64,000 nt of DNA from Heterotrichella gracilis (Eukaryota > Sar > Xanthophyceae > Tribonematales > Xanthonemataceae): contig JAULBX010001226.1 in NCBI GenBank assembly GCA_032358255.1, positions 64,943-128,942 of the forward strand, in the 5' to 3' direction. Each line of letters starts with the position of its first letter. Position 1 is the stretch's first letter. The notes below the pieces were generated by a model. It was not told the DNA's origin and did not search any database. It saw only the letters and a program-made list of their open reading frames with translations. This document shows positions 1 through 57,446 of this stretch, piece after piece. The translations under genes were made by a program, and so were the position numbers.

Positions 1-18
1 GCGATTGACACTGCTGAT

Positions 19-95
19 ATGGGACCACCATCCTGGACCAATCAGGGGAGCCTCATTGCCAAACGCACCGAATCTGTCGTGCTGGCCATGCCCTT
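19..95 (+). repeat. Degenerate intronic copy of the following exon's 5' part
   Basis: This stretch aligns by eye with 170-260 of the downstream exon. Shared blocks include ATGGG..ATCACC/ACCATCCTGG, CCAATCAGG, ATTGCCAAACG versus TTTGCCAAGCG, and GCTGGCCATG versus GCTAGCCATG. It has no clear reading frame and looks like a decayed direct duplication of the exon edge, as seen in the other genes of this window. Confidence 0.5.
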
Positions 96-168
96 TTTGC
101 CTGTACCTAAAGCCTAGAATGTTAGTGCATCCCCATTGGATTTATAATCATGCTCATGGTTTCCACAG

Positions 169-5100: not shown

Positions 5101-8100
5101 TTCAAAGATTACTAGGGACTATTGAGTGGTAATGAGAAATCACTGGTCATGGGAGGAAATGGAATGTGGATGACATCACATTGGACTATAGCACAATTGT
5201 TCTATTTGCTTCGGGCGATTGCGAAGCTTCTCTACTCTCGTTTCGGACCAGTGCTACAAGGGCATGTTAAATTTCAGGCTACCCCTGTAGGTGTCTGAGC
5301 AAGGGGAGAGCGCCACATGGCATGCTGGGGGTGCGCCCCACCACCCTTCGCCCCACCACCCCTCGCCATTGCCGCAGCCTGTGTTCCAGCCGGACGCCTC
5401 AGCGCTTTCCTCCCCTGCATGGTCCATCCTGGGTGTCACTCCCCTTGGGGAGGTGAGCGAGAGTGGGTCCACCGCACATGCGAGGGAGGCGGAGGGTGAC
5501 AGCGCCACGTCAGCGCCGCCATGCGCCACATCCGCGATGTCAAATGCCACGTCAGCAATGCTCAATGCCATGTCAGCGGTGCCAAATGCCACATCAGCGG
5601 GGCCTGATGCCATGTCAGCAGTACCTGGCGGCACATCAGCGGGGCCAGTTGCCACATCAGCGCCCTCGCCCGGGACATCGGCAGCACCAGGTGCCACAAC
5701 AGCTGTGGCAAATGCCACATCAGCGACACAACTCACCACATCAGGGCATGATAGCGCCACATCAGTACCTGCATCCGCTGCACCATCGGAAGCAGGCGCC
5801 ACGCCAGCGCCCTCGCCTGCCACGTCAGCAGCACCAGGCGCACTCAGCCCTGGTCCAGATGCTCACCAGGCGCTTGACAATACTGCTTCCCCATTGCTAC
5901 CGTCTGAACAGCCAGCAGCAAGCTCAGGCGAAACAACGGGGGGAGCGGGATCACGTGGGAATGGAGCAGGGGACGCGGGCCCATCTGGGGATGCGGCATT
6001 TGAATCACCCAGGTAGGGAAAACCATAGATGAAGGGGAGGAGGTGGGAGCGCTGTCCCTTCCCATGCCTTTGCCGCCCGGACCATTCCCCTGCGCATCAG
6101 CATGCGCATGTGCATCACAGTAGGGTCACCACCAACAACAAAAAAGCATTTATTTTCCTGTAGCATCCCCTCCCCCTTGACAGTACAGAGTAATGGTGAA
6201 AAGGCTGTCGCGCCCTGCTCCCCTTCGCATACTCTGTACCTTCCATACAGCATTCCCTCTCCTCTTTCTGACCCTCCTCTAGCTCCCCTAGGCGCCCCAC
6301 CCCTGCCACCATACCCACCCCAATGCTGCTGTTACTGGCGGGGTGCATAGCATGTATAGCATGGACCATGCAGCAACACCCGCAGGGCGACCCAGGCAAC
6401 GCATGCCCGCAGTCAGGCACAGAAGCGTGGGGGGCGTGGGTGAGGTAGGGCGCCCATCACTGACGGCGCCCACCACCTCCCGACGGTACCCAGGGTTTAT
6501 AGCAATTCTCTCCTGTTTATCTTGCAATTTTGTGCTTAGTTCTTTTTAAAGAACAAATAATTATTACTGTACAGCAGTTTGTGCACCACCACACGCAGGT
6601 GCAAACCCTGCGGTGCACATCGAGCAAGGGGATGTCTAATCGGACCTGAGAGAACGATTAACTCATCTTGGACACGCACGCACATCACTGGCGGGTGGCA
6701 AACAACAAGCGGTGCAGCTTGCTGAAAACCCTACAATTAACCCTAGTAACTGTGCCTACTGGCACTCTTAAGCATCAAACTCTCCTCGCTGACCATGGAC
6801 TGTTTTCCTTGCAGGACGCTACCTGGCGACAGTGCAGCAGGTCCAGACCCTACAGGAGGGTTCACCGGGCGAGCAGCATCTCCAGAGCCCGGAACATCAA
6901 AGCCTACAGAAGGGTCTCCTGTATCAACAGCAGGCGCCGAGCAATCGGAGACCCCTGAAATCCTGGAGGAGCATCCCTCAATCCCCAGCAGTCGAGAACA
7001 AACCCCACAAAAACCGCCTCTGTCCCCGGCCAGCGGAATTGCAACCCCGGAGAGCCAGGCGACTCCTCGGGACCCAAATTTGGACGAGATTTCGAGGGGG
7101 GGCGCGTCTGTGATGCGGTACATCAACTCCCCTGGCAGCTCGGGGGGGTATTGGGAGGAGAGCGACGGGGAGGTTGCCAGTGCCCGGTCAATGTTTGAGA
7201 GCACGGTGCTGAAGCGCCAGCTGCAGGTGCGGGCAAGTATAAGGAACCTAACCTGAGCATTGCGGTTGCGAGTGGGTGCCAGTGGGGCGTATCAGCATGT
7301 GTGTTGGATGAATGCTACCTTGACAGGGAAGGGTTTAGTGTTGAAGTACATGAATGGGTGACAGAGGTTTGCAGTGCTCGATCCATGTTTGAGAGCACGG
7401 CGCTGAAGCGCCAGCTGCAGGTGCGGGCAGGGTGGAGGGTTGGGGTTGTAGGTAGGCAGCATGGCATGTGCAGTGGATGGCACGTTGGAAGTGAAGGGTG
7501 TAAAGTCCAGGTCCGGGGCTTTTGATTGCAAGGGAGGGATGGCGGGTGAATGTTGGGGCAGCTGGGTATAGGGTGTGTGAAACCCTTACCTAGAACCTTA
7601 AAACCCTGACGTTCGATTCGCCCCTTGTCCTCAAGAGGGCGATCTGCACCTGCACAACCTGGACGCCTAAAAACCCTAATGCAAACCCTAAACTGCAAAC
7701 CCTGCCCCATTACCCCAGGAGGCCGATCAGCGCCTGCACGACCTGGAGGCCGAGAACGGCAACCTGCGCCTGCGCCTAGAAACCCTAACCCAGACCCTAG
7801 AGGCGCTCCAGAAGCAGCTGGCTGCGGGTGCGGAGGGGGGTGGGAGCGGTGATGACGAGGTATCCCTGCGGGAGGAGAACGAGGGGCTCATGGGGCAGCT
7901 GGTGCGGGCCAAGCTGGAATTGGCGGAGCTGCAGGGTACGTGGCAAAAACCCGAATCCTGATACCCTGCAAAACGCTAAATTTTGCAAAACCCTAAACCA
8001 TGCGAGGGGTAAACGAGGGGCTCATAGGGCAGCTGGTGCTGGCGGAGCTGCAGAGTACGTTTCAAGTCTACATGAAAATTTTCTGCTAAATCCTCAACTC

Positions 8101-9700: not shown

Positions 9701-12700
9701 TCAGCTCCCCACCCGCCGCCGCACCCCGTCATCCCAACCTCCAACCTCCCCCCCCACCATCTTGTCACCCTCCCCCCCACCCCCCACATTATCCCCCACA
9801 GGCACCACCGGTGAGACCCCCACGCTGGCCAGCGATGCCGGAGGGGTGACACCCCCCCTCCCTCCCCCTCCCCTGCCCACCCACGGGAGTATACTCCACC
9901 TTGCCCCGGAGGAGGCCGCCGCCTCGGACGACCCTATAGGGTTGGGGTTGCGCATCACATGTTCCAGTGCCCGCTCTAGCTGCACGTTGAGGTACCTGGT
10001 GCATAGGGAATGGGGGTGGGGCGTGTGATGCGGGAAGACCTGGTGGTGGGTGGTGGGGCAGCAAACAGCATCTGGGCGCTGCTGGTGGGGGCGCGAGGGA
10101 TGGGGGGTGGCGGGGGTGGTAGGAGTGGTGGGCGGAGGCTGCAGGTTCTCCCCACCACTTTGCCATTTGCTATCGCTCAGAGGCAATGGGCGCTGCATCT
10201 GGCGATCCTATGCGCCTGGGGTGCAGCCAGTGCGGACGCGATATGGTGGGTGATGGGCGGGCAGCACCGGAAGGCTTTGCTTTCGCTGGCGCCCCTTGCA
10301 CCCATACGGTGCTGTCGGTGACTGTGGGACGTGGCTAGCCCCAGTGGTGCACCCGGTGTGGGTGTCCCCAAAACACTCTCTGGTGGCAGGTGTAGGGTCT
10401 AGGGTCTAGGGTCTAGGGTTTGCGCCCTGGTGGTGGTGTCTGGACTGGTGACTCTGCCCTTTGCTGCGGCCCTCCCACTGATGCTGCTGCCGCTGATCAC
10501 GCTGTGGCTAGCCCGAGTGGTTCGCCCAGTGTGGGGTGCCGCCACCCGAGACAGTGGTTGCGGGTGTGGCTGGCGAGGAGCGTGCGCTGTATGGGTTGAA
10601 GAGCACCTTGCCGTTCACTGACAGGGCAGCCTCCAGGTCGGCCTTGTCTTGCCTGTGGGGGGGACGGATGGGGACGGTGTTGGTGGGCGGGTGGTGGTGG
10701 GCGAGAAGTGGGCAATGGAGGGTGGGGGGACAGTGGGCCATGGATGGTGGTGCTTCTGTGGTGTGTGTGCGGGGTAGCAGCTGGCCCAACCTCCTCCATT
10801 CCCCATGCCACCATGGTAGGTGAGCCACCCACCTTGGCCCCACCCCACCAGAGCCCCTCAGACCCCTTGAGGGTCAGCTCACCATTCCCTGCCCTCGCCC
10901 CGTGGTACATACAACAAATACACCCGTGCACAATAAGATCCCTCTCCTACACCCCACCCCACCCCGCCCCACCCCACCCATCGCCCTGCCGCCTCACCCC
11001 TCACCTGGGCTGCTCCACCTGCTCGTTGTACAGTAGTCCACACATACCTGTTAAGGGTTTAGCCCTACACCCTACACCCTAACCCCTAACCCCTAAACCC
11101 TCACCTGAGCTGCTCCACCTGCTCGTTGTAGTCGGCCTGCTTCTCCACCGCGCGTATGAGTGCCCGCTTGGTCTTGAGGTAGTCGCCCTGGGTCTCAGCA
11201 AGGGCGATCTTGGCCTGAACCAGACCCTCGCGCAAAGAGTCGTTCTCGTCCCGCAGCTTCGAGGCCTGGGTGCAGGGGAGGGATGGGTCAGTCAGGTGCA
11301 GCGCAGGTGATAAACCCTAGATGAATGCCCTAAACCCTAGGACAAGCAGGGAGTCGTTCTTGTCCCGCAGCTTAAGAGGTCTGCTCAGGCAACCCACCCA
11401 CCCACCCTCCCACCTCAATCTCCTCCTCCCATAGTCCCGCCACCACATCATCACAAACCCTATATCCTACAGCCCCTCCCATCTTAATCTCCTCCTCTCC
11501 CGGCCCCGCCACCACATCATCAAAAACCCTGCACTTCTTACTCTAACACTAAACCCCACCCCCCCTCCCACCTCGATCTCCTCCTCCCCCAGCCCCGCCA
11601 CCACATCGCCATAAACCCTAAACTTAAGACTCTAAACCCTAAGCCCAAACACCCCCTCCCACCTCGATCTCCTCCTCTCCCAGCCCCGCCACCACATCAT
11701 CATCCACAGACAGCAGGCGCAGGAGTGAGCCGCGCGCATCCTCGGGCAGGGCAGCCGCCACGCCGCTGTCACTCAGCCGGGAACCAACCAGGTGCAAGCG
11801 ATCCTGCGGGGAATGAGGGATGAGGGGTGGGTGGGTGGTGCAGGCAAGTGTGTGCGCGTAGGCTTCACAGCTCAGAGTCTAGGGTTTCTTAGTGCTCCCC
11901 TGTGGCACACCCCGCAGCGGACCCACTGCGCAGCTCCTTCCTCCCCAAAACCCCACCCAATACCACACCCACAAGCCGCCCTATCAGCTACATCCCTCGC
12001 CACAAACCCTAATGCATCCTACCCAACCGCAGCTGCGTGGCCGCCTTGCGGTGCTTGTCCCTGCCCTTCCTTCCTAACCAGATCCCTATCCAAACCCTAC
12101 AAAACTCTACCAAAACCCTACCAAACCCCGACCACCCACCCGCAGCTGCGTGGCCGCCTTGCGGTGCTTGTCCCTGCCCTCCTCAGCAGCCGCCAGGCGC
12201 GCCTCGGCAGCCGCCAGCCGCTGCGCAAGGACGCCCTCACTCACACCCATGCCCATGCTTGCGCCCTTGCCGGCGCCGCCAGCATTGTTGCCGCGCTTGG
12301 ATGTGGGCACTCGGGCTGCGGCAACAGCGCGGGCCAGCTCCTCCTCCAGCTCGGCCTTTTCCTGCAAGCATAGGGAGGTGGGGTTATGGGACAGGTTTTG
12401 GGGCATGATCCAATGTGGCCAGAGCCATTATCCTGCACAGCGCAGGGAGGGTCTGGTAGGGTTTGTGGCAATGTTGCCAGTTTGGATGTGGGGTCAGGAG
12501 CTGCGGCCACTGTTCAAGCCAGCCGATTTCAAATGCAGATTCAGCTGCAGATTCAGATTCAAGTCTGCTAGATCACAACTCACCTGGTCGGCCTGCCCCA
12601 GCGCCACCTGCACTTCCCTATCTGCTCCTCAACAAAGGGCCAATGCAATAAAAATCAAATTCAAATTTCAAATTCCAAGGTAATTTCCAAGATTGCCACC

Positions 12701-15700: not shown

Positions 15701-18700
15701 CCCTCTCAAAGGGTTGCATGCAGAGCACATGCATTTGATCAAGGCCGTGGGGACAACCCCCAAAACTACTGCATGCCAAAGTGAATGCTGGCCTTGTTGC
15801 TCTGCTCCCCACAACAAACTCCCCTCTCCCCCCTCTCACCCGCGTGTGCGTCCGCCCCCTGCACCGCCTGCCCGTTGTTTGAGTACACGCTGGCGCTGTT
15901 CCGCACTGCCAGCTGGAGCGAGTGCAGCTGCGCAGCAACCTCCACACGCGCACGCTGCTCAGCAGCCAGCTGCTCCTCCAAGCCCTGTGGTGGGGGTGGG
16001 TGGGGTTGGGCGGGTGATGGCAAGTGGTGAGGTTGCAGAGCGGTGGTGTTGGTGGGATGTGGTTGAGGATGGCAGTTGGTGGTGGTGGGTGGTGGGTGGT
16101 TCCAAAGTGCTGGTGGTGGGTGGTTTCAAAGTGCCAGGCTGTATGCGACATAGGGGATACAGTGCAAACCGCGTAGAGCGCAAACATGCACCACACATGT
16201 TACTGTTTTGCTTTAGAACCAGCACACAGCCACATTTACCCGTCCCCGCCTGTATCTTTCAGTTTAGGGTTATAAGTTTGGGTAAAACCCTAGGCAGCCA
16301 CCTTCCCAACCTGTATCTTTGCCTCATACTCCTCCGCCTTGTTCTCCCTCCTCAGCCCCTCTATCTCCCCCCTGGCCTGTTCCACCTGGCTCGCCAGCTG
16401 GCGCCGCTCCTCAGCCCACGCCCGCGTGTCAGACTTGTACTTGCGCTCACGCTCAAACCACGCAGAGGGTTTAAGGTTCTCCAGCGCGGTCAGCTCCTGC
16501 GGAAAAGGGAGGCAACCATGCATTAGGGATTGGATTAAGCTGGGCAAACCACACAACAGGTTTTAGGTTCTCCAGCATGGTCAGCTCCTGCGGAAGGGTG
16601 AGACCCTGCGGGGTGCACCTTGGCTTGGCTAGGGTCTTGGTAGGGTGCCCAAGTAAATGTAAGGGTTTCAGATCCTGGGTGCCAACCCCACAGCACCAAT
16701 TCTAACCATCAAACCCTACACCCCCATGCAAGCACACCCCTCCCCTCCTCACCTTTTGTTTTGCCACCACCTGGTTCTGCAGCGCCGCCACCAGCTTGCG
16801 AGCCAGCCCAGCAGCGGCAACCACCTCCCGTTCCCTCCCGTCACCCACACCCTACCACCATTTCATTGGCCATCCCCCCAGTTATGCAGGAAACCCCACC
16901 CCATTCCGCGACAGCACATGCGAGGCACCCCACCCCCCCTTTCCCTCAATCCAATCCCCTCCTCACCTTTTGTTTTGCCACCACCTGGTTCTGCAGCGCC
17001 GCCACCAGCTTGCGCGCCAGCCCTGCCGCAGCGACCACCTCCCGATCGAGGTCGGGGTCGCTGGCCAGGTCAGCTAGGCGAGACAGCACCTCACCCATCT
17101 CACTGTCTGTCATAGACGCATCCTCTGCAGGGGCAGGAGGGTTAGGGATTCAAAAAGCCAAAATCAGTCAAGTATGGCAACATTCTCAAACCGCTCTCCA
17201 TGCTTTGCACACGCCAGGGTTTCAAATTTTGCATAAGGCTTTAAGCAGCCCTTTTCCAAGTTCCCAAAGTGCGTTTTCCCAGCTGAATATCCGGCCATTG
17301 GCTCACATACCGTCCAGCAGCGTGACCACAGCCCCCGCTCCCCGACTGCTGCTGCGCCTCAGCCCCTTCTCTCGCTTCATGTCGCGCTTCAAATCCCGCA
17401 CGCTGGCCGCCAGCACTGCACAAGGGGTGTAGGGTGTAGGGTTGAGGGGAAGGGTATGACGGGGTGACAAGAGGATGGGTAGTGCACAAGGGCAATGGAA
17501 CTGTGCTCGGACCAGTCAGGGCAGAGCTGAGCGCTATATGACACATCCCTAGTGGCCATAAATGGGGTAGAATGAGGAATGAACTCCCATTGGGCTACGA
17601 GTGGGAGGCACCCATGCCTTCATGACAGCAACTGCAGCATCCTTTAGCCGGAAGCTCTTGAGGTAAGCAGCAGCAAATGCCTCCATGCATTCTTACATGA
17701 ACATGCATGCCTTCGTGTGTATACATTACATTGGCACCGCCACGTGCCAGCCTCTCGCATGCGTAGGCACATGTACACATGCATGCGCATTGGCGCATGT
17801 AGTTGCCATGCAGGTAGCCCTCCCCTCTCCATGCCTCACACCTTCATTGTACTCCTCGCTTGACCGCAGCTTCTCCCCTAGCTCCGCCACCTGGCGCCTT
17901 GCCTGTCCCAGTTCCGCGTCCAACTCCTCCCTTTCCAGGGCGGATGCGGCGGCGGCGGTGGCGGCGCCTAGCTCAACTGCTCCCGCCAGCCGCCTGAGTA
18001 AAATCACCAATTCAGGTATGTGCGGCATGCATCTGGAGCACAGGCAGGAGCTGCGTGTGGTAACCCGGAATGACCATGCCGCATAAGTTTCCTCAGAGCA
18101 AAGATGGTACAAAATATGCCAGAACAGGACTGCCTCGAGCCGGCGGTGCTGCGTGTGGTACCCCAGCAAGTGTGAATACAAACCTTTTACCTGTAGTGGG
18201 TTGCACTAAATCCCTGCCGAATGCCTACACACATCCGGCCAGCTCTGGTGGTCTACCAGGGATGTGAACTGCAGAGCATGTGCAGTTCATGCCTAGTACT
18301 TCGATGTGCTGATTCCACTAAGATTCTACCTACAGTACGCTGCACGGGTTTCTAGGGGTCTGCGCAGCTTCAATCGGCAGGAGTTGAGTGGGGTTTTCAA
18401 AACCCTGAAAAGTTGGAAAATGGATCCAGAATGAAGCCCTTGGCATGAAAATTTTATGCATAACACCATTGCGTCATGTACCATACAAAGCAATAAGGAA
18501 TCCGCGCCTGCGCGCACACGCACCCTCCCAGCTCCGCTTCATTCCGCCATGCCTCGGCCTCTCGGGCGCCCTGCAGTAAGCGCTGGTGCTCCTGCACAAG
18601 GGGGAACATGCAGGGTTTAGGGAAACCCTCATTACAACCCTCATGTTTTAGACCCTGATGTATAAGCCACATGCGCTTATGTGTGGATGCAGCTGCAGGC

Positions 18701-39800: not shown

Positions 39801-42800
39801 CACAAGAATGAGAGTTGTATAAAAAAAATCCATTTTCTTTGCCTGCTAATTAGCATTTTATTCCCATTTCCAGGGAGGGCCAGGTGTTTGCCGGGGGCAT
39901 CATCAACTTAATCCAGCTGGGCAGCGGCACCACAACAATAAAGAAATATGACGAAAAATGGCCTGCTAATCAACTATTAATTCCCATTCCCAGGGAGGGC
40001 CAGGTGTTTGCCTGGGGCATCAACGACTTTGGCCAGCTGGGCAGCGGCACCACCTGCTACTCCACACAACCGAACCCCGTGGTAGGGTTTGAGGATGTGG
40101 CCATCGCTGACGTGTCGGCAGGGGGGTGGCACTCGATCGCCCTCACAGTGAATGGAGGTGCGGGCTGGTTTAGGGTACTGCATGGGGTTGGATATGGCAT
40201 TTCTGTGGGATATGCATTGGAATGGCTTGGGGCTCACCCTGTGGTAGGGTTTGTGGATGTGGGCATCGCTGGTGTGTTGATTAGAAAACTCCACCACATT
40301 GGTGTGTTCCCAAGACAGCCCTAAATACCTCTGTTTGTGACTCACGTCAAAATTTTCATCTGTAATCCTCCCGAATTTTCTCTCACCAGAGGTGTATGTG
40401 TGTGTATGGGGGTGAGTATGGGCGCCTGGGTTTGGGCGACAAGGGGGGCGCCAGCAGGCTCAAACCCTACCAAAGACCTTTCAACTCTAATCCAAACCTA
40501 CCTAGAATGGTACCAAAAAGGCTGCCGTACCCAACCAACCTAACCAAAAGCCCCCATATCTGCAGAGGTGTATGTGTGGGGGCGGGGCGAGTATGGGCGC
40601 CTCGGTCTGGGCGACAAGGGGGGCACAAGCAGGCTCAAACCCCAAATAACGTTGCCAAACCCTGCAAAACCCTATCAACCCATTTCAAAACCCGCTTTTC
40701 GCAGAGGTGTATGTGGTGGGGCGGGGGGAGGACGGACGCCTGGGCCTGGGCGACAAGGGGGGCGCCAGTAGGCTCAAACCCTTCCAAGCATGACCCTAAA
40801 ATGGACAAAATGCTACCTTGACACTCTACCAAAAGGGCTGTTGTACCCAACTACTCACTTTAAACCCCCACACTTCTGCAGAGGTGTATGTGTGGGGGAG
40901 GGGCGAATATGGGCGCCTGGGCCTAGGCGACAAGGGAGGCACGAGCAGGCTCAAACCAACACATGTGCATCTCCCCGAGGAGGGGTGTGTGGTGGCAGCA
41001 TCGGCAGGGGGGACGCACTCCATGGTGGTGACTGAGGAGGGGAGGCTGTACGTGTGGGGCAGGGGGTCCTTTGGGCGGCTGGGGAATGGCGCCATCCAGG
41101 AGTGCTACTCGCCGGTGGAAATCACGCTGCCAGGTGAGTCGATGTTGTTTGAAAGGGGGGAAAGTAGTAAATTAGTAATGCCATGGGTGTAGAGGTGGAA
41201 GCAACTGTGACGGGGTGTGGTTGTTTATTGGGGTTTCTTAGGGTTTGGGCGGCTGGGCAATGGCGGCATCCAGGAGTGCTACTCTCCCGTGGAAATCACG
41301 CTGCCAGGTAAGGGGATGCTGTGGTTTTCGAGCGTAAAGTAGGGTTTAGGGTTTAGGGTTTTCAAGCGTAAAGTAGGGTTTAGGGTTTTCAAACGTAAAG
41401 TAGAGTTTAGGGTTTTCAAGCGTAAAGTAGGGTTTAGGGTTTTTAAGCGGAAAGTAGGGTTTAGCGTTTAGGGTTTTCAAGCGGAAAGTAGGAATGGAGT
41501 GGCTGACTTGCCATGGAGGTGGAGTGGTTTGGAAGGGCCTGTGACGGGGTGTAGCTGTTTGGTAGGTTTTGGCAGGGTTCGGGAGGCTGCGGAATGGTCT
41601 TATTGTAATCCGACTGGGAACATCACTTGTCTACTGGCTTCAGTGTATTTTTGACCCCTCTTCCCCTCTTTTTCCAGGTGGGCTGGAGCGGTGGCGGGTG
41701 GTGAGCATATCCTGCGGGGGGCGCCACTCCATGGTCCTGGCGGTACCCTTCAATGCAGAGGCCTCGCAGGTATGCTTAGGGTACTAACCTAAACCCTAAA
41801 CCCCAATCCCTTATCCCTAAGCCACTCCATGGCGCTGGCGGTGCCCTTTAACGCAGGAGCCTCGCAGGTGCAGACCAAATCCTAGACATCAAAACCTGAA
41901 AACTTAACTTGTGCGGTGGGTGCTAGTCAATGGTGCTGACAGTGCCTTTCAACGCAGAGGCCTCACAGGTGCGCGTAGGGTATTCGTTTAACCCTAACCT
42001 CCAAGCCACTCAATGGTCCTGGCAGTGCCTGTCAGGGCAGACGCGCTCAGGTGTGGTTAAGGTCTTAAGTATAAAGTATTGAACCGTAATCCTGCGGATG
42101 GTGGTGTTGTCGGCGCCATTCAAACCCGCGGCGATGCAGGTGCATCCCAAACCCTCTACTTGAATCCCTGAACCCTGCACATAACCCTACACCGTTGAAT
42201 GAAAGGGGAAAGTGAGTACGGTAATGAGAAAATATGCCATTTCTGGGCAGACTGGTTGTAAATGAATGAAGCAAGTCCGAATGTGTGCCAGTTGGAACCA
42301 CACCAGGTAATAAGCAGATGACGGCTGGCAATGCTTTTTTTTGTTTATGGTCAGTCTGAATCCTTGTCCCTGTAATGCGTAGGCGCCCACTCCCCGCCGC
42401 CTGTCGGGTCGCCAGCTGGCGGTGACCACAGGCAGCGATGCAGACATCGAGTTCTCAGAAGCTGAGTTGGACCAGGAGGGGGACTATGATATTGGGGAAG
42501 AAGAGGAAATGGAGATGCCAGCAGGTAGGAAAATATTTTATGCAAATGAAGGGCAAAGACTGGAATCATGCAAAGTATTTTAGTGGCAAATATTGGTAGT
42601 TATGGTGGCTGAGGTGGAATGGGAGGGGGGTTATAGTATTTAGGAGGAGGACGTGCCAGCAGGGAAAGCGGGGGTGGTCAAGTTGCTGAACTATCAAAAA
42701 TGGGCAAAATGTGATGAGGCCTTATGTTTGCAAAATTCAATGCAGAGCAGGCAAAAGCCAAGCCTACATGGCTGTGCATTGCGTCATACCAACCATCCAT

Positions 42801-46738: not shown

Positions 46739-49700
46739 TCATGCCCCCGCCTGCTTTGCGTCTCCTTTCGCCCCAGATGCTGACTGAGCCATTGCAAGCT
46801 CTGGGGTCCACTCATCAAACGTCGGCTCCCGATCCAGTGCACCCTGGTCAACACTCCCGCTCGGGTAATGCTCACGTGATGCACCAACCGCAACAGCTCG
46901 GGGGGTGGGCGATGCTGAATCCCCCTCCTTGGTCTTCCGCTCTATGTCCGCAGATTGGGAGCCAACGGCTGCATGGCCTGCGCCTTCGGCTACTGGAGGT
47001 GGCGGCCCGTCGTCCATGATCTGCACTGCCATCTGGCGCATGTGAGCCGCGTACGTCGCGCCGTTCATCCCACCCCGCAGAAATTCCTTCAAGGTGGCCT
47101 CGCTGCTGTCCGCGCGCCCCAGAAGCGGGCGATCCTCCCCACCGCCACTGCTTTGATGGAACAGAGGGTTGTGGCCACGGCTGCGCAACGCATTGAATGC
47201 ATCGCCAAAGGCGGCGTCCTGCCAAAAGTCGGGAAGCACATCCAGAGGCGGCGTAGGCATACACGCGCTGATGCACTCCTGCAGAGTGGTCGTGGCTGGC
47301 CCCGGTTGCGTCTCCTCCTGGCCTTGGCTGAGCTCCGACAGAGCGGCAAGCGGGGCATTCCTGGACAGAAACGCGTATGATTCCGCTGGCCGGGGGCTGA
47401 ACGCAAACGAGACCTTGCGACTAACGTCCGCTCCCGCAACATCCTGACTGGCGGCATGGGATGCATGTGCATCACTTGGCTGGGAGGCAGCGGTCAGCAG
47501 TATCGCTGCAGCGTTTGCAGCATTCCTTTGCAGACATGTTGCCAACTGCTGCTGCTCGTCAGGGGAGAGGCACGACGGGGTTGCCTTGGGCCCCGCGGTG
47601 GATGCAGCGGCTGTGCCAGGCGCCTGCTTGGCATTGGCCGCATGAGTCCACAGATCCAGGCTTGCTGCATCAACCCGGTGCCCACTGGCCAACGCCTTGG
47701 GAGCAACCCCTTCCCCGGTTGCCTCTGGAACAACCGGGGCGGCAGCGCGCTGGACCGCCATGGAGAGCGGTGCGCTCGACAGCTCCTTCCTCTGAGCGAA
47801 GCTCAAACCCCCACCACTGGACAGGGCATCGCCACCGGTTGGCGCTGGGGTGTCTGCAGCGACCGTGCCGCACAGCTTTGCCGCTGCTGCAAGCAGGGCG
47901 CTGGGGTGGGAATCCGATGATGGCGAGTGGCACGGGGAGGCCGCTGGACCGCTCTGACTCAGAAAATGGCCAGGTGGTAGCAGTTCGCCTAGCCGTATCC
48001 CGGCGGACGAGCCAGGGGCGCTGCTGGTGGGCGACCCCGGCGCACTGGGCGTGGGGGTCGACAGGAGGCTGGCTGTGGGCGAGGCAGGCTTGCTGGGGGC
48101 CGGTGAGAAGGGGGACACGCGCCTCTTGATTGGCTGCCGGGAGGCAGCAGGCATGTGCACACATGCGTCGCTGGCCACGCCAACCGCCTTGGCGGCGCAG
48201 GGCGGCCCCTGACTGAGCGCAAGCGCGTGCACGGCGGCGTCGCCGGTCGCCCCGCGCATGCTGCCATCGCCTGCTGCGCTCAAGGGCGCGACGCCCTGGG
48301 TGGGCATCGACAGCGGGCGCTGCACTTGCAGCTCCCTTCTGCTGCGGTGCGAGCGCACCACCGCCTGGTGGTGGCTGCGCGTGAAGGCCTCGGTGGAGCG
48401 GATGGAGGCAATGACTGCGGCCATGTCGGGGCGGAGCTTTGGGTCCGCCAGCAGGCAGCGGTCGATGAGGTCGGAGATCTCGGAGGGGCACTCATCAGGC
48501 GTTCTGTGCGCACAAACGAAATAGAAAAAAAATTAAAAAAATAGAAAAAAAATGATGCATTAAATAAGTTATTATTGATTGATTGAATGATAATTCATTT
48601 AAGGATAATAATGATATAAGGTAGAGAAGGAAAGAGGGGAGCTACGCAGCCTGTCTTTAAACAAGCGCGCTGCCGTAGTATCCACTGAAAACACAACAAA
48701 TAACTTCCTATGGCTAGTACCATACAATGATGACCGTCTTTGGAGCTGGTGGGCAGTGGCCCATTCCCTTGGCTAAGGGCACACTCCCCACCTGGCCACC
48801 ATTGGATGTGGACATTAACAATCATGTTTTAGGGTGCACACAGAGGCAGCTTCACCCTAGCCTTGGGTTGACTCATCCCAGGCAAGGTGGTCCCCACGCA
48901 CCTCCCTGGGTGCTCGACGGCACACAAGCATGTCAACAGATACTTATGCGGCATCCACCTCAAGACCACCCTTTCCCTTGCAAGGCAGGGCCCCTCAGCA
49001 CCTCCCACAACCCTCACCCACGCCAACCCCAGACTAGGAATCACCGCGCCTTACAAGGGTGGTGCACCTAAATCCTCCACCCTACAACGGTAGTGCACCC
49101 AAATCCCCAGGCAAGGCCCCCCCACTTCACCCCCCCCCCCCCCAAAAAAAAACCTAACCTAGGGTCCACCCACCTCAGCTCACGCAGCTTCCCCCGCACA
49201 GGCAGCTCCCCCGCGCAGATCTCCCACAGGACCACGCCAAAGCTGTACACGTCGGCGGCTGTGGTCACCACACGCGCATCCATCATCTCGGGAGCCATCC
49301 AGGACCATGTGCCCGACAGCGCCTGCGCGCTCATGGTGAACTTCTCGTGCATGATGTGCGCAAGGCCCACGTCCGCGATCTGCACAGCGTGTGTGAAAGG
49401 GTGGTTGAAAAGAGCGTGGGGATAGGCCCAGGTAGTAGGGTTCAGAGCTCATGTGTTAGGGTTTAGGGTCACTTTGCGTGCGCCGTCCATGGACACGTGC
49501 CGAACAGCGCCTGGGCATTCATGGTGGAGTTCTCTTGCATGATGTGTGCCAGGCCCACGTCCGCGATCTGCAAGCGTGTATGCATCTAAGGGGTTAGACG
49601 CAGCAGGGACACTGGGTTGTTGCTAGTGAGGGGCTTGGCCCAGGTTGTAGGGTTCAGAGCTCATGGGTTAGGGTTTAGGGTCACTTCACGCAACCCATGT

Positions 49701-52700
49701 GCCAAACAGCGCCTGGGCATTCATGGTGGAGTTCCCTTGCATGATGCGCGCCAACTCCCAATGAAGGACATCTGCAAGGGAGTTCAGAGCGCCCAACGCC
49801 AGCCGGTGTTGGACGCAGCAGGTCCAGTGTCGACAGGAGCCAACGTAGATATGACTACGTACGCTGCAGCTGCTTGAATACCGTAGTAATCACCTAAAGG
49901 TGACCCTAAAGGTGACCCTAACAGGTACCTGGGGTACATGGTGGCTATTGCAAAGCGCCTGCAAATGCTGGGCAAGGAATCACACATTCACACTCACTTG
50001 GCATAGTACTCGAAAACAGACAAACAGAGGCACCGCCGTAACCTTCACGCTGCCCACATCACCCGACACCACAAGTTGCTACACTGCTGCGTTGCATTGT
50101 GTTTGCATTGCAAGGCACTGGCAATGTTGCAAGTGCAGGGATCCACACCTTGGCCAGGCCGTCCCTGTTGAGCAGTATGTTTAGGGTTTAGGGTTAGGAT
50201 TTAAGGTCCACACCTTGGCCAGGCCGTCCCTGTTGGGCAGTATGTTTGCGCTCTTGATGTCCAGGTGCAGCACGTTCTGTTGGTGCAAGTAGTGCAGGCC
50301 CAGCGCAGCGTCCAGCGCAGTGCGGTGGCCCCTGCAGCGAAGGGAGGGGAGAACACACCGGTCAGGTCCGGACAAATATGGGTATGGTAATCCCACTAAA
50401 TCTGCAAAATCCCATTCAATTTGTTGACGACAATGGTCACGATAAATTTCAGATACGATCACAAGTATGGTTACTGTAGGTAGTGCAGGCCAAGCGCAGC
50501 GTACAGCGCGGTGCGGTAACCCCTGCATTAGGGAGACAGACAGGGTTAGGGGGTTGAGGTATTTACTGATTAAAAGAATGAGATTGGGATCTACAGCGAT
50601 ACCGATTGCGAGTTGTGATTTCCGGCATGTGCAGGTGGCGCAAGCCCAGCGTACTGCGTCGGCTCTTGCAAGGAGACATTGCAAGCATAATAAAAAAGGA
50701 AAATGAAAAGGAAAATGAAAAAGGAAAATGAGAATGATGTTGCTCTGAGTAACCGCTGCAGCCCAGCAGTTGCCCGGGGCTCACTTTAAACCGCAAACCC
50801 ATAACCCTGCATGCATCCACCTAAGCCCCGGACACCTCACCTGTTGTACCAGCTGTACTGCTGGCTCCTGGGCCCGCCATTGGTGCTGCGCAGCGCAGTG
50901 TACAGGTCCCCACCAGCCATCAGCTCCTACATACAAAAATATTAAGTAAAAAAATATTGAAAAGAAAGCAACTAATGAAAAATGAAGCGCATAGAAATAT
51001 TGACAATTATCATTGGAGATTACTCGATTATTTGACAGTCACATTCAAGGCGCCAACTCAGGAATACAAGGATAAATTTAATCATATATTTCGTTTTCAT
51101 GGTTGTTTATTATTGATTTACCATCATGATTGCCGTGCGGTCCTTGTCAAAGGCGGCCCCCAGGAACTGCACGATGTGCGGGTTGTGGCAGGCGCGCAGT
51201 ATGTTGACCTCCTTGACCACCTCCTTGATGTCCTTGTCGGTCATATTGATGGGGTTGAGCACCTTGAGGGCCACATGCAGCGCGCCCTTCCACTCCGCCT
51301 GGTACACCTGCACGGGGTGTTGGCAGGGACTTGGTGGAGTTTCATTAGGGTTTTCGGTAGAGATGGGGTTGAGCACCTTGAGGGCACGTGCAGTGCGCCC
51401 TTCCATTCCGCCTGGTACCCCGGCCATCTGATACCAACTCTTCCCATCCCAATATGACGCTTGCCATCCCAACATCAGCCCTTGCCAGCCCGAAATTGCC
51501 CTTGCCAAGCACCATCTCCGACCCATCCTCGTTGCGACAAATCTGCACATCCTCAGGCGCGATGTGCATTCTAGGACCCCAACCAAAAAACCCTACTCAA
51601 GAACCCTCGCCCAGGATCAAGTCTGATCCGTCAAACAACTCCCTTCCCATCCCAAAACCACGCTTGCCATCCCAACATCCGCCCTTACCAGCCCGAAGTT
51701 GCCCTTGCCAAGCACCATCTCCGACCCGTCCTCGTTGCGGCAGATCTGCACATCCTCGGGCGCAAAGTGCCAGTCAAAGGCGGCAAAGTCAAACAGGCCC
51801 CCGGGGTTCCGCAGCAGCTCCTTGCTGCCGCTGTTGGCCGAGTCGGAGCGCATGGGTGGCGGCGAGCTTGCCCGCGAGCCCGAGCGGCGCTCGGTGGGGT
51901 GCGTGGCCGAGGAGGGGGGGGATGGAGGGGGTGCTTCTGTGTGCTCAAGGCTTGGCCTGCAGGTGAGCGAGGCAGGGCGTCAGCTGGCGGCATGCGTTTT
52001 AGGTGTTGGAGCAGCAAACCCTGTTGCTTTTCCATCACATATTGCTCCATCACATCTTGCATGTGAACTGCTTCTAGAGCAGGGAATCTGGCATTTACGC
52101 TGAAAAGGCACATACTTACTTCCTGCTGTAACATGCCACTGCATCAGGGGCATACCAAGTATTATTTCAGCGGTTGTATCATGGCATATTAAGTACGCCC
52201 CCGACTGGCTGCATGCTATGGACCTCACCTTGCGGGTACCCTGTGCGGAGCCAGGAAGTGCAGCGCCTCCCTCCGCACAATGACCAGCAACGAGACCCCG
52301 GTGGCGTGGATGCCCACATAGTCTACCAGCACAGTCAGCAGCGACAGGACAGCCAGGGTGAAGGCCAAGGCGCGGGCCTTGCACACTGCGGCAGACCATG
52401 CTCGCCTGGCGACCTTAACTGCCTTGGTAGCAAGACTATCCACGGGTGGCAAGCCAGGGAGGACACCGACCACTGCAAGAAAACACGTTTAGGGTTAGGG
52501 GTACAAGGTTCAACCCCAGGGAGTCCCTCAGTGACGAATGCAAGGGTACACGCACAAGGGTTTAGGGTTTGTGGTTCATCCCAGGGAGTATGCGCTCCAC
52601 TGCAAAGGTATGTTCAGGGTTAGGCAGCAATCCGAAAAGCAATGATTCCCCGCCCAGCCATTATTGGAAGCGACTTGAGAGGTCAAGTCCTAAACCGACA

Positions 52701-55700
52701 CCCTCAACAGCCAACGCTCCCCGCACCTCGGTTCAGGCTGCCCTTGATGGAGTAGCGCACGGTCTTGGAGCCATGCAGCAGCGCCATGGTGTCCCTCCCC
52801 TCCAGCACCAGCATGCACGAGCCGCTCCCCACACTGCACTCCACCTCGCCCGTGGCGAACGAGAAGGACGCCAGGGGCCTGCCCAGCACCCGCTGGCTGA
52901 ACCTCAACCGCCTGATGCTCTGCCACGTGTCGGCATACAGGTCTAACACCGTGTCTGCGACGGCCTCCCTGCAGCGGTCGATGTTGTGGCACTGGCAGGT
53001 GAGCGCGGCAGCCTGCATGTCGCCCAGCCTGACTGAGCTCCGCCCGGCCGCCTGCAGGCGCACAAGAAATAGTTTAGGAAAACGAATCTTATATACATTG
53101 ATTGTTTACATATAGGAGTTTACTTGATGTTTACTTTGAGTAAGGAGAGCCTGCAAAGCTCCTGCCAACCGCCTGCAATGCGTAGAATACATAAATAATT
53201 AGGAAACATGCTCACAATAAACAGAAATGTTGCGTAATATGCGTTGGATGGCAATCTGGTCGAGCTTATCCTCACAAACTGCAATGTACGAAACAGACAA
53301 CTTTGGATTTTCCGGAAGCGCAAGCACCTGCGGCCATATGCCGCCATAGCGGAATTAAGTCAACCTGGTGTCACAGGCATGTCATGCCACACTGATAAGA
53401 TGCCTTGTCGCACAAGCATTTTTGCAGCTTGTGCCTTAATTTGTATTCATATCATTCACCCACCAGCGCCAGCTGTGTGTACACTTCCACGGGAGGCATC
53501 CCACTCTGCCACGTGCTCTGGTCCACAGGCAGGCAATCCAGCGCCTGGGTGGCAGACAGGTTGCGCACACTGGCATGCGAGCACAGCAGCAAGCCGCACT
53601 TGACAAATGGCTCTGCATGGACAGATTTAAGAATTAAAGGCTATGCAGCACATAATTGAGCATTAATGGCTCTGCTGGCAGGTGATTCAGCATTACAGGA
53701 GTTTTACATATAATTTGAGACAGTCAACAGGGGGCATCAATGGCTCTGCAGGCAAAGAATTTTAGCATGAATGGCTCTGCTGGCATAATATTTGCTCATC
53801 ATGCGTGTCACTACACCCGCAAAGTGAAGACAAGATGGGAGCTATGAGACAGGGTAGCTGCAGGTGGGGATGAAGATGGGGATGGAGATGGGGATGCTTG
53901 TGCATTTATTGTAGCCACCACAGGGTCCTACACCCGCACCCGATAGGATACATAACTAGGGCAAGCAACCACATGAACCAACCCGCCGGTGCAGGGGACA
54001 GGCTGCGACTTGTTTCATCCTTACAGCATGCATTCATTGTGACTTAATGAATTTGGTGTGCCGCACCTGTGACGGCTGGGACAAACAGGTGGTCAAAGGA
54101 GCCGCCCTTGAAGCGGGTGAGCTGCGCAGTTTCCTCGGGGTTGCGCGGGTCATAGGTGATCCACGGCACAGCGCCATACAGTACTGAGAAATTTTTGTAG
54201 GAGCCAGAATCGCTCCCTGGCCCCGGGACACGGAACTGGGCTGGTGCAAATAAGCGCTGAGCCACTTGCACCTCGTTCCTCTTGGAGCTGAAACGGCCCT
54301 GCAGTGCGGATTTAGGGTTTAGGGCTTAGTAGAGGAGCGTTGTGGCATTTGCACCTCATTCCTTTTGGACATGAAACGGCCCTGCAGTGCGATTTTAGGG
54401 TTTATGATTTAGTGATGGAGCCTTGAGGCACCTGCACCTCGCTCCTCTTGGTACTGAAGCAGCCCTGCAGACCAAAAAAATCCCACTAGTAATCGGACTG
54501 CCATATGGGTCCAAGTTGTAACAAAAGACGTGCACCAAAGTGGGTGGCTTCTAGTCTTTGCCAGGCACTCTTTTAATCTGCAGTGCACATATACTGCTAT
54601 ATAAGCGCTCCAGTTATGCACTGTTGCATGCAGCCTCGCAGCACAGGCAACATGCATTGTTGAAGGGTTTGGGGTTAAGCAAAAACCCTCCTTGGTTGCT
54701 TCACAGGTTCTAAAACAGCTTTGCAGCCAGCCTGGATGATAGACGGACTCAATTGCTGTGCATGGGTGGCAGTGTGATGCCCTGCGTGTCTGTTCAGCCT
54801 GCTGCTTCTGCTTCTACTTGCCTTGAGGTGGTATATGCCAATTTGGGAAACAGGGTTCAAACTTGGCACTGCACTTTGCAAAGGTGGAATCCTTGCTACT
54901 TGAACTCTGCACCACCATGGCGCGTAATTATGCACCACAGATTGCTGCTTCACAGGATCAGAACCACCCCGCAGCCGTATGGAGCGTGAGCCAATGCCAA
55001 TGTCACAATCCCACACCCACCGGGAGGTAGCTGTACGCCTGCTTGGCAAACAGCTGGGCGCACGTGGCCTCGTCCGCCTTGCAGTGGAAGGTGTGCTTGG
55101 ACCCCACCACCTCCTTCCACTGGCTTCCACTGCCTTCGTCGATCCTGGTGATTGCCGGGCGCAGGGGCAGCGACACGCTTTCATTGCTCTGCGTGACCAC
55201 CCTGCCCCGGGCATCGAAGATGTCCAGGGCCCACCAAGCCAAGGAGTGGGACTCTGGAACCACACGCAACAAGAAGTCACAGCATGCGATGGCAACATGT
55301 GCATTGGCATGCGTGCACCCTAAATGTTAACCCTAATCAACCACAAAACCCTAAGCAGTGTGTGCGCATACAATGGCATCGAAGATGTCCAGGGCCCACC
55401 AAGCCAAGGAGTGGGACACTGAAAGCACAGGCACAGCGGGATGACAAAGTGCATCAAGGGGCCACACAGACGACATCGGCGCAGCATGCATGTCACGTTG
55501 CACAAGCACCCTGCATGCATGAAAGACCACACTAGCCACAAGCGCCCTCCACCAACCAACAGCTATCCTCAAGAGCCGATGCCAGCGGCGCGAGCTGTCA
55601 GCCAACAACCCTACTGAATTGATAGTAGGGTTGATCACCAGGGTTTTTGGCTACGTACCGGCGCAGTAGTCCCAGTCAGACCCAGCAGGTGCCCCAGCCC

Positions 55701-57446
55701 CCCTTGGACAGCTGTCTGTGTCAACAGGGCACCATGGGCGGTCCCCTTTGTCTGACGTGAGCACGCACGCTGAGCCAAACACCGACTTTGAGATGTTGTG
55801 CGTGGCATCCAGCACCGAGAACCGAGTTTTGCAGCTGCACCCAGCAGCTGTCTTAGGTGCAGCGTAGTCTGCACCCAGGGCACACACAGTGTCGGCACTG
55901 CAAGGAACCTTCGATTTCCCCCAAAAAAACAAGGGAAACAATCGTTACAGAGGTACCTCTGCAGCAATGCTGTGTATAGTTTTGAATTTTTTGCTCCCAG
56001 GGCACATGGCTTCATATACCGCTACTGGCGCGAGCCTGCTTGCTAGGTTTTGTGGTGAGCCACGGCCACAAGGGGGTACAATTTACTGGAGTTTGTATGG
56101 GGCTGGCACTTGGCAGAGGTTTGTAAAGGCCATATGTGCATGGGCGGGTGGCCACTATATGTGTGCAAACACTCCCACCAGGAGGGTATTTAGGGTTTAG
56201 GGTTTTCTTACCTGTGAAGCAGTAGTCAAAGTACACTCCTGCGCTCAGCTGCCGGGGCGTGTACAGCGTGCAGGTAGACGGGTTCACAATACATATTGGA
56301 ACTGGGACGCCCGGCCCGAAAATGTCTGGGGTTGGAGTAAAACAGTGGCTGCAAACAAAGGTGGTGGTTGGTCAATTGCCCACAGATCGGGTGTAACGTG
56401 GGCAAGCGACATAAGCACTATACAAGCGAAGGCTGAAGCAGCACGTAAGTACCTGTGAGGCGAGCGTAAGTGCTGTCCCGCTGTGCCTACTAGGGAGTAA
56501 GGCTCCGAGCTGCATGTGCAACCGCCACCAGTGTGGCCTGGGGAGGTGATTACCAGCCCTTTGAAGATAAGGAAATGGAAAATGAGAAATGAGAAATTAA
56601 AAATTAGAAATCTGCAAATGCACAGTGTGGCTCTCCAAAGATGAAAAAGAAACAAATCAGAGCACAAATCTGGCATGGCGAGGTTACGACTAGCCATGCA
56701 AGAGGCAAGGCCGGTGGGTTTGCATCAATGCAGCTGGTACCCAGTGCAGGAACGACACCAATAGCTGGCTTGAGTGCTATGCTCTTGGGGCCCACGTATC
56801 AGGGCAACACTGTGTGCGCAACCTCGAGCTGAGGGCATTGTTGTGGGGCATTGTGGTGGCTGAATACCGGGAACCAATCCTGGCCATTGTCAATAAAGAG
56901 CGCACCAGACTGGGTTCACCTGAGCTTCCCCTCACCCTAAGCCCTACATACCTGCTGCCTCTGGGCTCCCCCGTTGTGCCTTGTTATCCTGCACAGGTTA
57001 GGGTTATGGTTTAGGGTCTTGAGCCGAGGCTGTGGCCTCCTGCACAGTTGCGAAACACGTCGACGCAACAAGGGAAGCTGCAGTATGCTTGCACTTTGGA
57101 GGGTACAGTGTGGGCTGTGCCACCTAGCAAGGGGCACCCACCTAAAAGGGTGTTGTGAGGCACATTCTGCTTCAGGCAACTGGGAGGAATGTACTATACA
57201 GGTGCACTCTGCACACTGGTGGGTGTGGAGTTGCGGAGCGCACCTACATAGTACATCCCTACAAGCACAGATACCCTGCAGGATATTCTGTAGGACACCT
57301 GTAGGATACCTGTAGGTATGGTCTGTGGGTCAGTTGCCATCGACCATCCACACCACGCTCACCTCACCGGCCGCCCAGGTGTCACCAAGCAGCAACACCA
57401 ACACCACACCCACGTAGGAGACCCTGGCCCATAGCTGGAGGGACAT
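46739..57446 (-). CDS. Receptor-like serine/threonine (TKL-type) protein kinase
   Basis: Fourteen exons: 57446-57368, 56325-56212, 55908-55659, 55253-55021, 54298-54067, 53612-53464, 53051-52727, 52472-52229, 51956-51689, 51307-51122, 50926-50841, 50331-50214, 49379-49174, 48503-46739 (TGA). All phases agree except 56212 to 55908, where a small exon is probably missing. About 1418 residues. Exon 1 encodes a signal peptide (WARVSYVGVVLVLLLGDTWA). A Cys-containing ectodomain of about 440 residues follows. The membrane helix (ALAFTLAVLSLLTVLV) is near residue 510. Kinase: glycine loop GKGNFGLVYQ, lysine in VALKVL, C-helix EVVKEVNIL, catalytic loop HLDIKSANIL, DVG, GTWSWMAPEM and DVYSFGVVLWEI. 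The last exon finishes the kinase and adds a disordered Ala/Ser/Pro-rich tail of about 540 residues. HRD reads HLD and DFG reads DVG; the catalytic Asp, Lys and Asn are kept. It is likely a plasma-membrane receptor kinase; the ligand is unknown. Confidence 0.9.
49485..49775 (-). repeat. Two copies of the kinase activation-loop exon's 5' part
   Basis: 49485-49571 and 49684-49775 repeat 49295-49389 (start of exon 49379-49174, coding IADVGLAHIMHE). The functional copy and the nearer copy keep GCCCACGTCCGCGATCTGCA with the acceptor; the farther copy is decayed. GGGTTAGGGTTTAGGGTCAC precedes both copies, so the repeat unit includes heptamer sequence. Confidence 0.88.
50145..50685 (-). repeat. Copies of both edges of the catalytic-loop exon
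   Basis: 50148-50182 copies the 3' edge of exon 50331-50214 (CCACACCTTGGCCAGGCCGT and CCCTGTTG). 50470-50525 and 50628-50675 copy the 5' part (GTAGTGCAGGCCAAGCGCAG..TACAGCGCGGTGCGG). The catalytic HLD motif is not included in the 5' copies. Confidence 0.8.
51340..51600 (-). repeat. Composite copy: exon end + intron + next exon start (kinase)
   Basis: 51480-51572 copies the end of exon 51956-51689 (DVQICRNEDGSEMVLGKGNF) with the donor changed to GCAAGG. The following intron sequence (GATGTTGGGATGGCAAGCGT) is also copied. 51345-51425 then copies the start of the next exon (YQAEWKG..LH). A whole exon-intron-exon junction was therefore duplicated in the intron between the two functional exons. 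Confidence 0.88.
54335..54470 (-). repeat. Two copies of the 5' edge of exon 54298-54067
   Basis: 54340-54385 and 54428-54470 repeat TTGCACCTCGTTCCTCTTGG and on through AGCTGAAACGGCCCTGCAGTGCGG. Both include the acceptor CACTGCAG-like sequence (the second CTGCAG). TTTAGGGTTTAGGG tracts separate them. Confidence 0.85.
55370..55425 (-). repeat. Copy of the 5' edge of exon 55253-55021
   Basis: GGCATCGAAGATGTCCAGGG and the following CCCACCAAGCCAAGGAGTGGGAC is repeated almost exactly from 55210-55255. The copy includes the acceptor side. Confidence 0.88.

Follow-up and report, generated by a model that had tools for sequence, protein, structure and literature searches.

Direct copies of exon edges, often with telomere-like joints, in the introns of Heterotrichella gracilis

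Genes and sequence comparisons

The 64,000-bp stretch of Heterotrichella gracilis contig JAULBX010001226.1 analysed here (positions 64,943 to 128,942; hereafter the window) carries predicted genes with Prp18, glutamine synthetase, RCC1 and protein kinase domains, and its introns contain short copies of the edges of neighbouring exons. A first reading of the sequence (the original prediction) had proposed that such copies occur in nearly every gene, arise by recurrent local duplication primed by intronic telomere-like heptamers, and supply either decoy splice sites or sequence from which new exons could form. The assembly holding the window comprises 68.5 Mb in 903 contigs. Outside the window, one 10-kb stretch was taken at one fixed position on each of 25 other contigs of the assembly; one of them was composed of N and 24 were readable. 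Together with the window, the sample amounts to about 0.3 Mb of the 68.5 Mb. Each stretch and the window were compared with themselves under one common set of settings. Exons were predicted with a two-strand hidden Markov gene finder, trained in six rounds on the window and 23 stretches (294 kb), and all exon edges mentioned below are predictions of this program rather than RNA-derived. Its output contained 480 exons (median 135.5 bp) and 442 introns (median 300.5 bp), with the consensus CAG/GTGGGT at donors and GCAG/G at acceptors (the slash marks the exon-intron boundary). Four of the five submitted translations, from which predicted copy exons had been omitted, matched Pfam domains, namely the four cited above, which supports the gene models. 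The telomere repeats of this genome are of the plant type, TTTAGGG.

Introns carry copies of adjacent exon edges

Of 350 introns (at least 60 bp long, with flanking exons of at least 30 bp), 80 contained the edge of a neighbouring exon a second time on the same strand, i.e., 24 of 71 in the window and 56 of 279 elsewhere. Edges of foreign exons, with 969 comparisons per edge type, gave no match for donor edges and 0.4% for acceptor edges, and reverse-complemented edges gave one donor case and one acceptor case over the 350 introns. The exon-edge copies are hence confirmed as genuine and also occur beyond the window, about a quarter of the examined introns bearing a decayed copy of the neighbouring exon edge. 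The copied piece typically comprises 30-100 bp of exon and some, often very little, intron; it is direct, the second copy lies in the adjacent intron, usually separated from the first by other DNA that is often telomere-like, and it differs from its parent by 2-33%. The claim that nearly every gene is affected fits the window; elsewhere, at least one copy-bearing intron was present in 16 of 23 sampled stretches. Searches of open PMC papers listed no account of such exon-edge copying.

Self-comparison led to the same picture. In the window, the search at E<=1e-3 gave 65 direct repeats at most 500 bp apart, of which 54 were plain and 11 telomere-rich; inverted repeats were absent up to a distance of 5 kb. 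With blastn over the window and the 24 stretches (at least 50 bits, telomere-rich and low-complexity matches excluded), 133 direct pairs were at most 1 kb apart, compared with 11 inverted pairs, 10 of which lay within 100 bp and were hairpin-like. Direct repeats concentrated at a spacing of 60-230 bp, and inverted repeats showed no such crowding. The intron-by-intron test searched the adjacent intron only, and blastn, which covered each whole stretch, returned only three direct pairs 500-1000 bp apart, with one more at 2-5 kb and another farther. The same orientation and the proximity of copy and parent, both part of the original prediction, were thus recovered in the window and in the sampled stretches, as were arrays: 14 edges had at least two copies, with a maximum of four. 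It had also been claimed that divergence often increases with distance from the parent, and this was not established, the nearest copy being the more similar in eight arrays and the less similar in five, with one tie.

Preference for exon edges and position of the breakpoints

The original prediction depended on the copies being commoner at exon edges than in introns at random, and this is what the sample gave. Among 96 non-redundant pairs, 77 straddled a predicted exon edge with either copy, against 42.1 ± 4.7 expected from random shifts; this count may be inflated, as some copies were themselves called exons. Only nine pairs lay wholly outside exons (39.5 expected), and none of 1000 random shifts reached either value. 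Seven pairs combined an exonic copy with one outside exons (7.9 expected), and three were inside exons (6.6 expected; 88 of 1000 shifts gave three or fewer). Exon-related pairs amounted to 84 and intron-only pairs to nine. Random segments of 40-100 bp would fall about three times in introns only for each placement on an edge. Simulated duplications at 3% and 6% divergence per copy were detected with a frequency of 0.97 and 0.94 when intron-only and 0.97 when at an edge; at 10% divergence per copy, the values were 0.76 and 0.95. Because intron duplications are detected about equally well at 3-6% divergence, detection alone does not explain the exon-edge excess. Among unfiltered pairs at least 90% identical, 18 were edge, two exon-intron and five intron-only (p 0.015 against the random-shift share). 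Two of these five, at 41323 and 60775, lie in short-unit tandem arrays, and a third, at 5887 of stretch L017, sits among copies of an already counted edge.

The parent copy could be split into an exon and an intron part in 63 of the 96 pairs, those in which it contained exactly one predicted exon edge. For the 13 pairs of at least 90% identity, the median exon part was 48 bp and the median intron part 7 bp, the intron part being the shorter in 12. Over the 30 bp that follow their matches, similarity was at chance level (gapped score of 0.109 vs 0.086, standard deviation (sd) 0.058), which indicates true breakpoints. The repeated bracketing of splice sites by the breakpoints, as originally noticed, is thus confirmed for the most similar pairs at least. 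In 33 pairs, at least 25 bp aligned with intron on both sides, and these resemble whole-unit tandem duplications. The preference for exon edges may stem from nucleosome borders at exons, from breaks linked to transcription or from the G-richness of donor ends.

Offsets, sizes and arrays

Copy and parent were offset by no more than 225 bp in 88 of 91 cases, whereas random placement within these introns would yield 48.2 ± 4.2; among introns of at least 400 bp, this held for 43 of 46 (16.4 at random). Offsets were mostly well below the intron length, and those exceeding it seemingly occurred where the copy had been called an exon (e.g., 25513-25590). Fitted with two components, the edge set separated into a tight class, centred at 198 ± 9 bp and holding 37%, and a broad one at 118 ± 30 bp. 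The corresponding classes in the pair set, which overlaps the edge set and is thus non-independent of it, were at 192 and 104 bp. The gain in Bayesian information criterion for two components was 32.8, compared with a maximum of 27.4 in 100 draws of uniform simulations; normal data never gained. For the window alone, with its 30 offsets, two classes were unsupported, this number being too small. The upper limit near 220 bp is firmer than the 105-bp class, and together with the tight 198-bp class it is new here, beyond the original prediction.

The copied length was broad (42-131 bp from the tenth to the ninetieth percentile) while the offsets were clustered, and the limit therefore seems to act on the copied piece plus the joint. 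Middle copies inside 200-bp pairs were detected in 5 of 23 at p<0.05, so that a few of the 200-bp offsets may be two 100-bp steps. Autocorrelation of base composition (CG, TG/CA, WW and GC content) showed no clear peak near 195 bp; TG/CA had faint bumps near 110 and 180, possibly caused by the duplications themselves. The periodogram of intron lengths had a weak peak at 170-195 bp (0.126 vs a noise of about 0.052), which was not used as evidence.

Telomere-like heptamers at the joints

Where 8-160 bp separate the copies (66 pairs), the telomere hexamer was present in 42 joints and the heptamer in 32, whereas matched stretches near the edges of pair-free introns would give 17.3 and 9.6 ± 2.9, respectively. 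Heptamer density reached 22.1 per kb in the 118 introns with pairs and 5.2 per kb in the 324 without, with about 0.6 per kb in exons; overall, 1557 heptamers were counted in 175 kb of intron vs 45 in 81 kb of exon. The association of heptamers with the duplications, and the local and recurrent nature of the latter, were thus recovered. The proposed priming was not. Indeed, the G-strand was nearer the upstream copy in 19 cases vs 19, and G-strand hexamers of the heptamer type spanned the joint between exon copy and gap in 4 of 51 cases; the outer end of the intronic copy, taken as control, gave 5 of 51. The heptamers may therefore be filler rather than primer. As a separate candidate, ends extended by telomerase would place the G-strand at the upstream copy and the C-strand at the downstream one; this order was not borne out, the 68 gaps comprising 15 with G only, 16 with C only, three GC, one CG and 33 with none, and telomerase extension is kept only as a possibility.

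When the tracts of a gap all had the same orientation (38 gaps), the joint was G+T-rich in the heptamer sense (mean of 0.66). The G-strand ran away from the exon in 28 cases and in the opposite sense in 10, five being mixed and 23 without tracts. Within 40 nt of acceptors, seven G-strand and 138 C-strand heptamers were counted. Homology between joint and flank was not significant in 40 of 57 pairs; 17 reached p<0.05 (about 5.6 expected) and 11 of them p<0.01. The joint of the pair 3735/3840 of stretch L011 (95% identical) holds heptamers and a 29-bp inverted copy of the sequence just upstream, a template-switch mark as expected from a polymerase changing template. That of the pair 8488/8666 of stretch L032 has an 80-bp match, to the same locus. 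In the window, a 27-bp tandem array at 41323-41492, with a unit of two telomere heptamers and 13 bp, lies beside an exon-edge copy, which indicates that telomere-like tracts also expand by themselves.

Decay of the copies and age of the events

Among 20 donor copies reaching the exon end, 15 kept GT and two GC, against 15.7 expected under neutrality from their own divergence; AG was kept in 11 of 16 acceptor copies (11.5 expected). That many copies keep AG or GT is hence correct, without excess over neutral decay. Copy and exon differed by 8.1, 8.1 and 17.2% at the three codon positions, which is close to the expectation for a free copy and a constrained exon. Indels were frame-breaking, i.e., not multiples of three, in 75 of 81 cases, and 8 of 1112 codons in the copies were stops. 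No constraint on frame or splice sites of the copies was detected in these comparisons. As the copies decay like neutral pseudo-exons, a role as decoy splice sites or as raw material for exons is unsupported.

A diverged paralog of the kinase gene of the window (L038, contig C106) has duplications at the places of 50142/50207, 50289/50480, 51248/51362 and 49294/49482/49695. Eight columns of difference between the two follow position and four follow gene, which suggests that the shared events predate the split of the paralogs; concerted evolution of exon and copy left no strong sign in these columns. A counterpart of the copy 51435-51567 was not found in L038, being either a later event or lost there. 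By eye, the parent exon at 50207-50247 reads NILPN, while the intronic copy at 50142-50182 and the paralog exon read NILLN, and this copy may keep the older codon. A cluster of several paralogs of the window kinase, 67-87% identical in the matched pieces, lies at about 32-58 kb of contig C106 of the same assembly (G000).

Origin of the copies

Taken together, the copies are somewhat probably scars of recurrent break repair at exon edges that duplicates the edge, the joint being filled with DNA that is often telomere-like. Direct orientation, short range, offsets that cluster although the copied length is broad, joints mostly without significant homology to the flanks, the chance-level similarity past the match in the 13 most similar edge pairs, heptamers at the joints, the template-switch mark in L011, neutral decay and the failure to find a dispersed family in the sample count for this repair explanation. 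The initial lesion beside the splice site would be either a pair of offset nicks or a break whose long single-strand ends are complementary, and filling in the ends would duplicate the overhang. Nicks in plants were reportedly the subject of work by Schiml in 2016. Telomere-like and sometimes locally templated DNA would then be added before the ends are joined. Each event would lengthen the intron and leave a copy without function, events wholly within exons being removed by selection. Since the observed limit bears on copied piece plus joint rather than on the copied piece by itself, a size limit (about 100 or about 200 nt) may apply to the filled single-strand tail as a whole. The machinery of telomere ends (telomerase extension and fill-in by CST-Pol alpha-primase) is a natural candidate, and the involvement of telomerase itself is unproven. 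The genome encodes a telomerase RNA-binding domain and a Ku domain. In mouse cells, small tandem duplications at breaks depend on CST and Pol alpha-primase, the telomere-end fill-in complex, according to PMC8355091, and PMC2246262 describes telomere repeats inserted at mammalian breaks, sometimes with duplications.

Several observations weigh against the repair explanation. A plain repair scar leaves the frequent hits at exon edges vs the rare hits in introns (84 vs 9) unexplained, as well as breakpoints about 7 bp inside the intron. For the 18 pairs of 85-90% identity, the intron side past the match was somewhat above chance (gapped score of 0.158 vs 0.087, sd 0.051), so that decay partly makes the bracketing there. 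The telomere hexamer is wholly missing in 24 of 66 joints, hexamers of the heptamer type seldom span the joint, and the even order of strands fails the prediction of telomerase extension. The bias of the G-strand away from the exon can also come from selection on splicing, because G-strand heptamers, which bring an extra AG, are avoided near acceptors. The intron piece between 51435-51567 and its parent resembles old intron in L038; the joint there is thus not new filler, a single case that misfits the simplest model. Finally, CTC1 was not found, by a search unable to show its absence.

Replication slippage or template switching, with the tracts as the cause as in the original prediction, appears unlikely. 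A strand paused at G-rich telomere-like tracts would jump back by about one Okazaki fragment, which is about 200 nt long, and recopy the exon edge. This would agree with the direct orientation, the limit near 220 bp, the tight 198-bp class, the telomere tracts at joints and the one inverted templated insert. However, a simple backward slip would duplicate the joint too, which is unseen in 40 of 57 pairs and in the most similar ones; moreover, 24 of 66 joints lack the hexamer and the exon preference is left unexplained. It is less probable still that random tandem duplications were merely filtered, those internal to exons by selection and those internal to introns by a decay twice as fast. Selection within exons is expected (three pairs seen for 6.6 expected), intron-intron identity was 0.840 vs 0.877 for exon and copy in the 33 pairs with intron on both sides, and intron-only detection dropped to 0.76 vs 0.95 at 10% divergence per copy. 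Up to 6% divergence, however, intron-only detection remained at 0.94-0.97 vs 0.97 at edges. About three intron-only pairs per edge pair would be expected, yet nine were observed vs 84, and five vs 20 in the unfiltered set of at least 90% identity. In addition, the breakpoints of the most similar pairs hug the splice site, and this filtering was already disfavoured.

Fragments of unspliced transcripts protected at splice sites, carrying exon and a few intron nucleotides, could template local break repair in the intron and would explain both the exon preference and the breakpoints about 7 bp into the intron. This route is very improbable, since RNA offers no obvious reason for a distance limit of 220 bp and the intron part reaches 53 bp in one of the 13 pairs of at least 90% identity (in stretch L023) and in the 89.6% pair 51435/51636. 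That the copies are selected functional elements, either decoy splice sites or regulated alternative exons, would fit their frequency and the many that keep GT or AG; with dinucleotides kept at the neutral rate, 75 of 81 indels breaking the frame and a third-position excess near the neutral-copy expectation, we give it scarcely any weight. Local tandem repeats are prone to mis-assembly, yet an artefact of this kind is barely conceivable for copies that differ by 2-33% from their parents, share eight difference columns by position with a paralogous locus and occur in 16 of 23 sampled stretches. An introner or mobile family as the source was rejected, no such family having been found in the 294 kb.

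Going further from the repair explanation, it is possible, though doubtful, that introns grow mainly from their edges through repair with telomere end-processing beside splice sites, in steps of about 100 and 200 bp that would correspond to nucleosome or Okazaki-fragment length. Splice sites would then be repair hotspots and intron length would be quantised.

Relation to known systems

The duplications depending on CST-Pol alpha-primase are likewise direct, short-range and local; according to PMC8355091, they arise at breaks with complementary single-strand ends through the telomere fill-in machinery. Here, by comparison, extra and often telomere-like DNA lies at the joint and breakpoints favour splice sites. 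Short interstitial telomeric sequences share the short telomere-repeat tracts at presumed repair joints, and PMC2246262 lists deletions, additions and duplications at the tract flanks. Duplications are a minority there (6 of 130 in rodents and 4 of 25 in primates), and in-register microhomology is common, whereas here a duplication of about 30-170 bp accompanies the tract and joint-spanning hexamers are rare. As for those sequences, internal repeats of telomere type are far commoner in introns than in exons.

Intron gain by tandem duplication, as reported second-hand for Rogers and Hellsten, also involves duplications across an exon-intron boundary; here, mostly existing introns were lengthened and no case was shown to make a new one. 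Introners also affect many introns genome-wide, and a link to nucleosome linkers is discussed in PMC9860276, but the present copies resemble the neighbouring exon, and no shared sequence family was found in the sample. For an introner-type family, near-identical sequence would recur at many unrelated loci; a comparison of 24 sequences (294 kb, with telomere repeats masked) gave 12 cross-locus hits in total, none longer than 231 bp. The copies also have no element ends at which target-site duplications or terminal inverted repeats could be sought. Nor was a dispersed family found among the joints in the 294 kb, where the best match to another locus among the matches listed was of 34 bp (E 7e-4).

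How introns lengthen without transposons is, to our knowledge, not settled. A local and countable process in about a quarter of the sampled introns, with a preference for exon edges, a size limit and telomere-like joints, makes a mechanism testable. It also calls for caution in annotation, as the gene finder called some copies exons (e.g., 33092-33179 and 25513-25590).

Coordinates of the features and other observations

The features of the window are collected in Table 1.

Table 1. Exon-edge copies, their parents and related features (window coordinates; percentages are identities, offsets in bp)
Feature	Position	Strand	Details
Parent exon 3' edge with donor, unnamed gene (exons from 2725)	7170..7235	+	91% to 7364-7429; offset 194; exon part 57 bp, intron part 9 bp
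Intronic copy of 7170-7235	7364..7429	+	
Intronic copy of exon edge 11084-11130	10984..11030	-	87%; offset 100; gap with G-strand then C-strand tracts on + strand
Filler, telomere-like tracts in both orientations	11031..11083	.	
Exon-edge copy array, period about 89 bp	11405..11698	-	Parent edge at right end (exon 11663-11803)
Intronic copy of edge 12134-12180	12021..12067	-	98%; exon part 41 bp, intron part 6 bp; offset 113
Strand-asymmetric telomere-like filler, copy to parent	12068..12133	.	
Parent exon edge (exon 12140-12361)	12134..12180	-	
Duplicated exon edge 16713-16833 / 16927-17047	16713..17047	-	86%; offset 214
Tandem copies, 2.6 units, period about 107 bp, glutamine-synthetase-like gene	22952..23222	-	Telomere-like joints
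Duplicated exon edge 23423-23580 / 23622-23777	23423..23777	-	85%; offset 199
Duplicated exon edge 25502-25618 / 25701-25817	25502..25817	-	89%; offset 199
Intronic copy, Prp18-domain gene	33090..33183	-	98% to 33271-33364; exon part 92 bp, intron part 2 bp; offset 181
Parent exon edge with donor, Prp18-domain gene	33271..33364	-	
Duplicated exon edge	33388..33561	-	91%; offset 95; telomere-like joint
Acceptor-edge copy 37157-37197 and parent 37252-37292, RCC1-repeat gene	37157..37292	+	88%; C-strand heptamers in gap
Acceptor-edge array	39741..40053	+	Copies 39741, 39871; parent edge 39991
Four-member array: three copies and parent edge 40879-40957	40387..40957	+	Spacings 176, 139, 177; third copy called exon
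Donor-edge array	41723..42063	+	Parent 41723-41771; copies near 41821, 41927, 42005
Kinase parent exon edge and two intronic copies	49294..49753	-	Similar arrangement in L038
Intronic copy of donor edge 50207-50247	50142..50182	-	98%; offset 65; joint starts AGGGTTTAGGGTTAGG on + strand; similar in L038
Kinase parent exon edge with donor	50207..50247	-	
Parent acceptor edge 50289-50336 and intronic copy 50480-50527	50289..50527	-	Similar arrangement in L038
Parent acceptor edge 51248-51311 and copy 51362-51424	51248..51424	-	Similar arrangement in L038
Intronic copy of 51636-51770	51435..51567	-	Pair 89.6% identical
Parent edge 55210-55268 and copy 55375-55433	55210..55433	-	93%; offset 165; C-strand heptamers in gap, + strand
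Not of this class: in-exon or simple tandem repeats	5504-5841, 14253-14461, 60775-60985, 63205-63679		

The Prp18-domain gene, a splicing-factor gene, itself bears one of the most similar copies (33090-33364, 98%). The tandem repeat at 5504-5841 is a degenerate 21-bp repeat (GCCACATCAGCG...), partly in a predicted exon, and is an ordinary minisatellite. Those at 60775-60985 and 63205-63679 are minisatellites of 34 bp and 27 bp, beyond the span of the original prediction. Dispersed repeats are present at 44827-45057 and 25940-26080, with matches to stretches L011 (87% over 231 bp, inverted), L022 (92% over 141 bp) and L015 (88% over 112 bp, inverted). Stretch L009 (G000:C1:20001-30000, on an 894-kb contig) has a GC content of 0.357 vs 0.50-0.59 in the other listed stretches and no local duplication pair, and is possibly another replicon or a contaminant.

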